A DNA stretch of 34,644 bases, taken from an uncultured Bacilli bacterium. Its GTDB lineage: Bacteria > Bacillota_I > Bacilli_A > RF39 > UBA660. Each line of letters begins with the position of its first letter. The first letter of the stretch is position 1. The stretch spans positions 1 through 34,644 of the forward strand of contig CALVKM010000009.1 of assembly GCA_944332705.1 (NCBI GenBank), given 5' to 3'. Position numbers and translations under genes: made by a program. This document shows positions 8,441 to 15,145 of this stretch, piece after piece. The notes beneath the pieces are model-generated. The model did not search any database and was not told the DNA's origin. It worked only from the letters and a program-made list of their open reading frames with translations.

Positions 8441-8674
8441 GTGAGCAAATGGAATTTTATTGATGATTCTATTGTTTTTGATGAAGAATCATTACCTAGT
8501 GGAATGAGAGAAAGAATTAAAGAATTAGAAAAATATGATAAAGATAATGATTTTATTATGTTTGATGCTTGTTATGAAGGAATAGAAACTGGAGCTAAAA
8601 ACTTATTAATATCGGGTAGAATTACAAAAGAACAATATAGAGGAATTGAAAGAAAATATGGAGGTTATGTATGA
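8441..8674 (+). CDS. Small acidic protein, putative partner of HipA-like kinase
   Basis: 77 residues from a GTG at 8441, chosen because AAGGAG (8427-8432) lies 8 nt before it; a GTG at 8432 would overlap that site. The protein begins SKWNFIDDSIVFDEESLPSG and ends with KEQYRGIERKYGGYV. No known domain is recognised. The stop overlaps the kinase start by 4 nt (ATGA), so translation is coupled and the products probably act together. In HipBST systems a small protein (HipS) neutralises the kinase, but I see no clear similarity to HipS, so an antitoxin role is inference. Confidence 0.75.
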   Translation: MSKWNFIDDSIVFDEESLPSGMRERIKELEKYDKDNDFIMFDACYEGIETGAKNLLISGRITKEQYRGIERKYGGYV

Positions 8675-9594
8675 TAACATTAAATGATTATTCAAAAGCT
8701 CAAATTAACAACCAATTATACGGTGGTGCTGCTGGTCAAAAATTAGGAATAAATATAAATGGCGAAAATTGGTTTTTGAAATTTCCTAAATCAACTAGAA
8801 GTATGAAAAATGTAAATATTTCTTATACTACTTCCCCTCTATCAGAATATATTGGTTCTCATATATATGAAGATATTGGTATAGATGTTCATGCAACTAA
8901 ACTTGGAATATATGATAACAAGTTAGTAGTGGCTTGTAAGGATTTTAAGAAAGATAATGAATTATTATTTGATTTTAATTCTATTAAAAATCAATATTCT
9001 AAAGATATGGATGAAACTTCTTCAAGTGATGGGCAACAACCTCTTGAAGAACTTGCAGAAATATTTGAAAATAATCAAATATTTAAGGAAGTTCCAGAGT
9101 TAAAGAATAGATTTTATGATATGTTTGTTGTTGATGCTTTAATTGGCAATCATGATAGAAATAATGGAAACTGGGGAATACTTGTAAATAGTATAACTCA
9201 AGCTATAAGACTTGCTCCCATATATGATAATGAAGCTGCATTTAGTAATAAACTAGATGATGAAAAGATAAAAGAAATAATAAATGATGAACATAAATTT
9301 AGACAAAATGTTTATGAAAGTAGGATATCATCATTTTCATTAAATGAAAAAATAATTAATCCTTTAAAATATATTGAAACTATGAAAGATAAGAAATTAA
9401 ATGAAGCGGTCATTAGAATAGTGCCTAAAATAAATATAGAAAATATATTTAAGATTATTGATAAAATACCTAATGAATATAATGATATTAAAGTAATTAG
9501 TGATATACAAAGAAAATATTATAAAAAATGTATTTTATATAGGTATGAACAAATATTATTACCAACATATGAAAAATTAGAAAAAGGAATTTAA
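8671..9594 (+). CDS. HipA/CtkA-like serine/threonine kinase
   Basis: 307 residues. HipA-type kinases phosphorylate protein targets (glutamyl- or tryptophanyl-tRNA synthetase in studied toxins) and cause growth arrest. Visible: a Gly-rich N-terminal strand (YGGAAGQKLG), the ATP-binding Lys in WFLKFPKS (about K37), the helix SEYIGSHIYEDIGI, the catalytic loop GNHDRNNGNWG (residues 159-169; D162, N167) and the metal-binding Asp in APIYDNEAAF (D186). It lacks the long N-subdomain of classical HipA (about 440 residues), like HipT and Helicobacter CtkA. It is translationally coupled to the 77-residue protein and lies downstream of an HTH gene. The target is unknown. Confidence 0.85.
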   Translation: MITLNDYSKAQINNQLYGGAAGQKLGININGENWFLKFPKSTRSMKNVNISYTTSPLSEYIGSHIYEDIGIDVHATKLGIYDNKLVVACKDFKKDNELLFDFNSIKNQYSKDMDETSSSDGQQPLEELAEIFENNQIFKEVPELKNRFYDMFVVDALIGNHDRNNGNWGILVNSITQAIRLAPIYDNEAAFSNKLDDEKIKEIINDEHKFRQNVYESRISSFSLNEKIINPLKYIETMKDKKLNEAVIRIVPKINIENIFKIIDKIPNEYNDIKVISDIQRKYYKKCILYRYEQILLPTYEKLEKGI

Positions 9595-13366: not shown

Positions 13367-13395
13367 ATTTTACCACTTTTCACACAATTTTGCAA
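13367..13395 (-). promoter_or_regulatory. Promoter of dnaG-rpoD-trmK
   Basis: On the minus strand TTGCAA (13390-13395), 17 nt, then TAAAAT (13367-13372), about 30 nt before the dnaG start. The same two hexamers at the same spacing occur before the toxin-antitoxin repeats (14152-14180). Confidence 0.65.
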
Positions 13396-13411: not shown

Positions 13412-13930
13412 TTAAGGTGTATTTACTAGTTGCTTATTATAATTTGCACAAGCTTGTTCCAGTAATTTAAAGTTACAACATCTATTACTAATAACTTTAG
13501 GTAAATGATTATTATTATATTTTTCATATAACTTTTCAGCTCTTCTTTTAAGAATATCTACATTAGAACTTAACCATCTATATTGATTTTGTAAAAGCAT
13601 TAAATATTTTAATTCTTTAAAATCATTAGTTTTTTTATTTAAATTAACCATTGTATAATTATTTGGAGTTACAGGAATCATATTATTAAAATTAACAACT
13701 CCTAATTTACCATTATCAATTTTTATAAAATCTATTCTATTTTTCATAGTTAAGTGTTTAGCTTTAGGACTAGATAATGGTGCAAAATATTCTATATTAC
13801 CCACATTAAATAAAACACCAATAAATGGTCTAGTATTCTTATTAGCATAATTATAAACAACCTTACTATCAAATTTTCTTAAATAATCGCAATAATTTGA
13901 ATCAACAATTACAAGTTTTAAAGTATTCAT
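13412..13930 (-). CDS. toxN: Type III toxin-antitoxin endoribonuclease toxin, ToxN/AbiQ family
   Basis: 172 residues, close to ToxN (171) and AbiQ. Family landmarks in order: an SNYCDYLRKFDSKV start motif, RPFIGVLF, the catalytic patch YFAPLSSPKAKHL (residues 48-60, with S53 and K55 where ToxN has its active-site Ser and Lys), RIDFIKID, KLGVVNFNNMIPV, the helix LMLLQNQYRWLSSN and the C-terminal CCNFKLLEQACANY. Such toxins cut mRNA and their own antitoxin RNA, and they act in plasmid maintenance or abortive phage defence. The ATG at 13930 has AAGGGGG upstream. Upstream lie a terminator and tandem RNA repeats, the diagnostic type III layout. No terminator is obvious between it and the dnaG promoter. 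Confidence 0.92.
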   Translation of the reverse strand: MNTLKLVIVDSNYCDYLRKFDSKVVYNYANKNTRPFIGVLFNVGNIEYFAPLSSPKAKHLTMKNRIDFIKIDNGKLGVVNFNNMIPVTPNNYTMVNLNKKTNDFKELKYLMLLQNQYRWLSSNVDILKRRAEKLYEKYNNNHLPKVISNRCCNFKLLEQACANYNKQLVNTP

Positions 13931-13980
13931 GTTTAATCCCCCTTTTCTTTGGTATTTATATTGTATCACAGATTTACAGA

Positions 13981-14010
13981 AAATAAAAGACCAAAATTAA
14001 TATTTTGGTC
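13981..14010 (-). terminator. Terminator between antitoxin repeats and toxin gene
   Basis: A perfect 9-bp stem (GACCAAAAT / ATTTTGGTC, loop 4, 13989-14010) is followed on the minus strand by TTTTATTT. In ToxIN-type loci this terminator sets the antitoxin:toxin transcript ratio by limited readthrough. Confidence 0.85.
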
Positions 14011-14012
14011 AA

Positions 14013-14145
14013 CTTTTTTCATTCCTCATTTATGGCTGTGGATCACCGCTTTTTTCATTGCCATTTCCGGCTGGCAACACCGCTTTTTTCATTCCTCATT
14101 TATGGCTGTGGATCACCGCTTTTTTAGCATTGATTAACTCAATGT
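14013..14145 (-). ncRNA. toxI: ToxI-like type III antitoxin RNA, three tandem repeats
   Basis: Read on the minus strand, three abutting units (14118-14083, 14082-14049, 14048-14013) of 36, 34 and 36 nt are preceded by a 7-nt partial unit (14125-14119). Units 1 and 3 are identical; unit 2 differs. Each begins CGGUG and ends UGAAAAAAG. A stem encloses an 8-nt loop: UUGCCA/UGGCAA around GCCGGAAA in unit 2, UCCACA/UGAGGA around GCCAUAAA in the others. The differences mostly preserve pairing. GGU at the 5' end can pair with GCC in the loop, an H-type pseudoknot as in known ToxI. Known ToxIN antitoxins have 34-38-nt repeats, cut by the toxin and bound as an inhibitor. A small hairpin (14128-14144) opens the transcript. 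Confidence 0.88.
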
Positions 14146-14151
14146 AATTTT

Positions 14152-14180
14152 ATTTTACTATAAATTACTAGCTTTTGCAA
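14152..14180 (-). promoter_or_regulatory. Promoter of the antitoxin RNA/toxin operon
   Basis: On the minus strand TTGCAA (14175-14180), a 17-nt spacer and TAAAAT (14152-14157). The predicted start near 14145 lies about 20 nt before the first full repeat. Confidence 0.7.
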
Positions 14181-14278
14181 TACTTTTACTGTATTTTAGC
14201 CTTTCTTCCGTATTTTTTTATTAATAATAGTATCAATATAGTCAATTTAAAAACCCCCTTTGACATGGATTAATTATA

Positions 14279-15145
14279 TCATAAATGTTTGTTCTTGTCA
14301 AATTTGCGTAAAATACCATAGCTCAAACTCACTATAAATATTGCTATGAATGCTCCGGTATAAATTGATACAAACTGACAAAGTAAAGCAGAAATTATAC
14401 TAACAACAATACCATAAATAATAGTTCCTTTTAGAGATACTGGAGTATTTTTTAACTCTGGTGCTATTAAAATAAAGCTTAAAACAGCATTAGAATTAAG
14501 TAAAGAATTAATATTAAAATTATTTAAAATAACCGTCAATAATAAAAAGACAATAATACTACTTATAGCTATATTTTGCTTATAAATTGTAAATATACTA
14601 TAGTATATTATTAAAATTATACCAATAATTATTGATGAAGCTGCTATTCCACCAGGATTTCTCCCAAATAATAAATCTAAAAAAGAATAAGAATAGTTAT
14701 TTGTTTGTTCTATTGGGTTTAAATAATTATAACTATTAAATATTACTAATACTAATATAATACCTAATATAATAAAAGATATATTGTTATATTTGAGTAT
14801 TTTAGATAAATAATGATCAATAAATAATAATCCAAATAAAGATATACTATAAATAATTAAATTAATAGAATATGGCATAAATAAAGGAATAATTAGAATG
14901 CTTAATAATTCTAAATTAAGTTTTAATTTTCTTTTAGTTATTATACTAAATATAATATATATTATTAAACTAATAATAATTAAATATAATACTTTAAATA
15001 TACTAAGAAAGTTAATTAAATTAGCATTATATAAAATTATACCATTTTTATATATTCCATATAAGACTAATGGAATTAAACCATAAATATACTTTAAAAC
15101 ATATTTATCTATAGTATTTTTACTATGAATATATACTTTATTCAT
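14279..15145 (-). CDS. RnfD/NqrB-like integral membrane protein
   Basis: 289 residues with about nine or ten membrane helices. The segment LLFGRNPGGIAASSIIIG resembles the flavin-attachment region of RnfD/NqrB proteins (G-x-PGG-x then Ser/Thr), and a late segment (LLNSNAVLSFILIAPELKNT PVSLKG) looks like their conserved FxATDP loop but is degenerate. In Rnf/Nqr pumps this subunit carries FMN and helps couple electron flow to Na+ or H+ transport. The ATG at 15145 has AAAGGTGAT 4 nt upstream and overlaps the end of the RnfC-like gene by 8 nt. No RnfA, B, E or G is adjacent, so the complex may be reduced or split. Confidence 0.7.
   Translation of the reverse strand: MNKVYIHSKNTIDKYVLKYIYGLIPLVLYGIYKNGIILYNANLINFLSIFKVLYLIIISLIIYIIFSIITKRKLKLNLELLSILIIPLFMPYSINLIIYSISLFGLLFIDHYLSKILKYNNISFIILGIILVLVIFNSYNYLNPIEQTNNYSYSFLDLLFGRNPGGIAASSIIIGIILIIYYSIFTIYKQNIAISSIIVFLLLTVILNNFNINSLLNSNAVLSFILIAPELKNTPVSLKGTIIYGIVVSIISALLCQFVSIYTGAFIAIFIVSLSYGILRKFDKNKHL

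Follow-up and report, generated by a model that had tools for sequence, protein, structure and literature searches.

Sequence and structural-model evidence for a chromosomal ToxIN (AbiQ-like) type III toxin-antitoxin operon beside dnaG in an uncultured Bacilli bacterium

The window analysed here, a whole stretch of 34,644 nucleotides from an uncultured, gut-type Bacilli bacterium, carries on its minus strand, from 14180 to 13412, a promoter-like site, a 17-nt inverted repeat, three tandem repeats, a terminator and an open reading frame of 172 residues, in this order. The order promoter-repeats-terminator-toxN recurs in nearly all loci read among the relatives. In toxin sequence and fold, active-site residues, repeat array, terminator and predicted H-type pseudoknot, the locus agrees with the published definition of ToxIN (PMC5086642; PMC8860590). 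From its sequence, we therefore regard it with high confidence as a type III toxin-antitoxin operon of the ToxIN (AbiQ-like) kind, located on the chromosome. A first-pass annotation had proposed a complete ToxIN/AbiQ-type locus, which family HMMs, matches to solved structures and compensated base pairing now bear out, and every part it named was found where it had placed it.

The toxN gene (13412..13930, minus strand) encodes a 172-residue ToxN/AbiQ endoribonuclease toxin with the putative catalytic residues R34, S53-S54 and K56. Its earlier assignment to the ToxN/AbiQ family held in HMM searches, which matched Pfam ToxN_toxin (PF13958) at E 7.2e-49, with 166 bits where the cut-off is 25, and the PADLOC AbiQ model at 3.6e-39. 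Among PDB chains it matches ToxN_Bt (5.5e-24), ToxN_Pa (1e-13), and AbiQ and ToxN_Ec (both 1.8e-12). The NCBIfam scan gave no match for the toxin, though its plasmid relatives carry a ToxN/AbiQ annotation. The AlphaFold model, built from an alignment of 28 homologues, reached a pLDDT of 90.8, and in Foldseek only ToxN_Bt, ToxN_Pa, ToxN_Ec and AbiQ matched it at E<=0.001, with TM scores of 0.73-0.79, while CptN and MazF were far weaker. Specifically, the ToxN_Pa active-site residues Lys33, Thr52, Ser53 and Lys55 correspond to R34, S53, S54 and K56 of the window toxin, so that S53 occupies the position of Thr52; the fifth, Tyr29, is without a clear counterpart. Residues R34, S54 and K56 are invariant in all 28 homologues, and E. 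coli clusters 4 and 5 likewise have Arg in place of Lys33 (PMC8860590). We also observed an unusual active-site change in the toxins of three other loci (L017, L012 and L016), which carry Tyr (LYSPK) instead of Ser at the Thr52 position.

The antitoxin array comprises three units in an AAAG register, namely unit 1 (14087..14122, 36 nt), unit 2 (14053..14086, 34 nt) and unit 3 (14017..14052, 36 nt, the same sequence as unit 1), all on the minus strand. Tandem Repeats Finder reports one single array at 14013-14125 with a score of 177, and the repeat pattern occurs at these three places only in the 1.43-Mb genome, with 0 matches for a reversed control pattern; the 36/34/36-nt repeats described before were thus real. 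In unit 1, stem P1 would pair GGU (14117-14115) with GCC (14106-14104), and stem P2 would pair UCC (14112-14110) with GGA (14095-14093). P2 of units 1 and 3 is weak and interrupted (UCC/GGA, an A.A mismatch, CA/UG), while in unit 2 it is rewritten to UUGCCA/UGGCAA. Folded alone, units 1 or 3 are not stable (-2.9 kcal/mol, z 0.2) and unit 2 does better (-9.2, z -1.15), and the case for the repeat fold rests on comparison between loci.

For this comparison, we used 70 distinct units from loci fetched through the toxin, and counted pairs on a global MAFFT alignment with a gap-open penalty set by hand, as the default alignment misplaced P1. The consensus reads AAAG-[C/U]-GGU-GA-(P2a)-GCC-AUUAAA-(P2b)-tail. 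Position 7-20 of P1 is paired in 68/68 units (GC 59, CG 5, AU 4) and position 8-19 in 70/70, the GG/CC of stem 1 being swapped with compensation to AG/CU in 4 units and CG/CG in 5, while U-G and U-A prevail at the third pair. The paired fraction is 0.93 for P1, against a shuffle mean of 0.86, and 0.75 for P2, each reached in 0/2000 shuffles, which ignore the relatedness of the units. When P2 is slid by one column it keeps as many pairs (0.757 versus 0.752), as indels make the alignment imprecise on that side. Stem 2 takes the forms UCC/GGA, UUGCCA/UGGCAA, UACCA/UGGUA, CCCA/UGGG, UUCC/GGAA, UCUC/GAGA and AUUGCU/AGCAAU, and is rewritten with compensation even among near-identical toxins; among four sister loci with toxin identities of 73-95%, three different P2 stems are in use, which suggests that the sequence of P2 is not read by the toxin. 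These data support the prediction that the repeats form an H-type pseudoknot, the clearest evidence being the compensated changes themselves, and they agree with the pairing between GCC and GGU and the conserved stem pairing seen in the first pass. Additionally, the junctions between repeats are A-rich (AAAAAAG) and match known ToxN cut sites (PMC5086642).

One earlier impression, that the repeat looked new, needs correction. The Rfam ToxI covariance model gave no match to the window even at E<=10, and weak matches to other Rfam families (Qrr, sR44 and others) were rejected as chance, but a Lactococcus lactis plasmid carries the close repeat AAAAAAGCGGTGAATCTCCACCATCAAGTGAGAATC and dozens of relatives share the repeat. 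As the Lactococcus and Clostridioides phage repeats are very similar, that of the window is not new in kind, though it lies beyond the Rfam models.

The putative sigma-70-type promoter of the operon (14152..14180, minus strand; TTGCAA-17-TAAAAT) matches 9/12 consensus positions, which by itself is not above chance (8 found versus 8.0 expected); its -10 region and leader are closely similar in three sister loci (L008, L010 and L017). The gap between antitoxin and toxin holds a Rho-independent terminator (13989..14010, minus strand; 9 pairs, loop of 4), which had been recognised in the first pass and proved far above chance, with a folding z-score of -4.7 and 0.1 +/- 0.4 terminators in shuffles. 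Between terminator and toxN lies an extended -10, TGATACAAT (TGATATAAT in G022), with similar sequence in the closest sisters; in the search for an internal toxin promoter in this gap most loci do not beat shuffles. In one other locus (L029) a perfect 12/12 promoter, TTGACA-18-TATAAT, occupies this gap and would free toxin expression from reliance on read-through of the terminator.

Between promoter and array lies a 5' leader stem-loop (14128..14144, minus strand; CAUUGA-GUUAA-UCAAUG), a part absent from the first-pass annotation, which starts 8 nt past the -10, where +1 is expected. Its p value is about 0.04 when taken alone, and it recurs with other stem sequences in relatives across the class. 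In the stretch that separates the -10 from the first repeat, most loci carry a stem-loop with a variable stem, such as CAUUGA/UCAAUG, GCAUAUA/UAUAUGC, ACAUAGC/GCUAUGU, GUAUUUA/UAAAUAC and ACAAGGAAAA/UUUUCCUUGU, and in 14 loci picked for a clear stem it starts 6.9 +/- 1.1 nt after the -10, at the expected transcription start. Using the 35 nt adjoining the first repeat, a length fixed after the first results, we found that 13/34 loci versus 2/34 control regions beat dinucleotide shuffles at p<=0.05 (Fisher 1e-11 versus 0.59, with independence overstated by related loci). A second set, fetched later from other genera and with array starts picked by eye after the sequences had been seen, gave 4/20 loci versus 0/20 controls (Fisher 0.003 versus 0.87). 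GNRA loops occur in 7 leaders of the first set and 4 of the second, against 0.2 expected per set, and suggest that selection acts at the RNA level and not on an operator in the DNA. The PMC papers searched on ToxIN describe promoter, repeats and terminator and yielded no leader hairpin; this element may be novel among type III antitoxins.

Among known systems, AbiQ/antiQ of L. lactis plasmids shares the toxin family and fold, three repeats and a terminator before the toxin, and its repeat AAAAAAGCGGTGAATCTCCACCATCAAGTGAGAATC is close to that of the window, AAAAAAGCGGTGATCCACAGCCATAAATGAGGAATG; it differs in its plasmid rather than chromosomal location, and the plasmid hit has a protein identity of 38.7% and no leader stem-loop at its locus. 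The ToxIN system of Bacillus thuringiensis, which is plasmid-borne, offers the closest solved toxin (PDB 4ato; 5.5e-24, TM about 0.8, about 30% identity). Its antitoxin is an H-type pseudoknot, as predicted for the window (PMC5086642). The systems of Pectobacterium atrosepticum (2xd0) and E. coli (7d8o) have the fold and the active-site Ser and Lys in common with the window, and their stem S1 has the same two central G-C pairs (PMC8860590), whereas repeat number and tails differ, and Lys33 of P. atrosepticum is Arg in the window. The ToxIN of the Clostridioides phage pCD1602_4 likewise has an array of three units, of which the middle one is a variant (A-B-A), together with the repeat core AAAAAGCGGTGA and 42% toxin identity, but is phage-borne, unlike that of the window.

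ToxN was found in 20/59 relatives searched, with five matches in one genome, and in 40/395 genomes of a class-wide draw; a scan of viral contigs found no relative. Within the genus, ToxIN commonly sits amid core genes: several genomes carry it between polA and mutM, G014 having two tandem copies ahead of mutM, and other copies adjoin dnaE, polC, recO or alaS, gene names here being assigned by eye from sequence. Loci L002, L004, L009, L011, L020, L031 and L013 have replication or repair neighbours, and a preference of ToxIN for such neighbourhoods is possible. On the plus strand of the window, 4 kb from ToxIN, a HipA-like kinase gene (8671-9594) matches the PADLOC candidate defence model PDC-M03A at 1.2e-35 and may be a second defence or toxin gene.

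In the window, ToxIN directly adjoins dnaG on the same strand, which together with its recurrence beside polA-mutM might suggest a regulator of the downstream dnaG-rpoD genes or an addiction module guarding them. We consider this very unlikely. The dnaG gene has a putative promoter of its own outside ToxIN, in the gap that separates it from toxN (13367..13395, minus strand; TTGCAA-17-TAAAAT, with TG before the -10), and the TAAAAT...CGATTTTT region is similar in relatives without ToxIN, including G001, G012, G013 and G016. In most genus members examined, dnaG lies beside an NQR2-like gene without ToxIN, eight of them having only ~73-117 bp between the two (a contig end replacing the NQR2-like gene in one), and ToxIN occupies this gap in G000, G022, G002 and G019. 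At the same site, toxN of the sister G002 has a premature TGA at codon 105, where a sequencing or assembly error is possible, and broken ToxN copies are also present in G023, G026 and G009, which argues that loss of ToxIN is tolerated. A dependence of dnaG on the locus was thus rejected, and the idea that a position upstream of dnaG-rpoD makes loss risky did not survive the comparison. The same broken copies might point to a decayed remnant in the window, complete in appearance but no longer a working pair; the open frame, the full set of catalytic residues, the clean terminator and the three intact repeats of this copy make that improbable. As for another type III family, CptIN or TenpIN, the gene order is alike and the CptN fold is distantly similar, but this reading has almost no chance of being right, given that CptN (4rmo) scores E 0.027 and TM 0.34 versus 1e-8 to 1e-10 for ToxN/AbiQ, the toxin sequence likewise favours ToxN/AbiQ, and the repeats measure 34-36 nt and have a first pseudoknot loop of two bases, as in ToxI.

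The NQR2-like/dnaG gap holds further elements in the relatives. A gene for a J-domain protein (DnaJ-like, HPD motif) is intact in G019 (L072) and broken in G002 (L073), and in G001 (L071) it occurs without ToxIN, while the window has no J-domain gene; from these sister gaps we infer that the window acquired ToxIN and later lost the J-domain gene. A perfect promoter (TTGACA-17-TATAAT with TG; 14273-14301, minus strand) lies inside the end of the NQR2-like gene. It is followed by a 19-codon open reading frame, LTILILLLIKKYGRKAKIQ, with a TTG start after AAAGGGGG (14186-14245, minus strand). This element is kept in four sister genomes with mostly conservative or silent changes, and in G019 the J-domain gene comes next.

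By analogy with studied ToxIN systems, one promoter would transcribe the three 34-36-nt antitoxin units, and most transcripts would end at the terminator, which would keep antitoxin in excess of toxin. ToxN would then cut the precursor in the A-runs between units, and the pseudoknots so released would trap it in an inactive, closed ring. Once resupply of antitoxin fails, through phage infection or another shock, ToxN would be freed to cut A-rich RNA and growth would halt. Antitoxin processing, toxicity and phage defence at the window locus are all inferred from this parallel. The leader stem-loop probably shields the precursor from 5'-end-dependent RNases. More tentatively, and with the odds somewhat against it, Bacilli ToxI precursors may commonly open with a start-site stem-loop whose structure is kept while its sequence is free, and whose loop is often GNRA. 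Such a stem-loop would be a previously undescribed element of type III antitoxins, one that protects the precursor 5' end, such that loss of transcription, and not exonuclease decay, times toxin release.

Overall, the window ToxIN adds a new member to a known family, and the leader stem-loop is the sole part that might surprise specialists. The window locus and its relatives add a well-supported ToxIN set from uncultured Bacilli, and the 70 natural antitoxin units with compensated stems provide a map of the bases tolerated by the toxin. With the recurrent leader stem-loop, the standard ToxIN layout gains a candidate element that can be tested.
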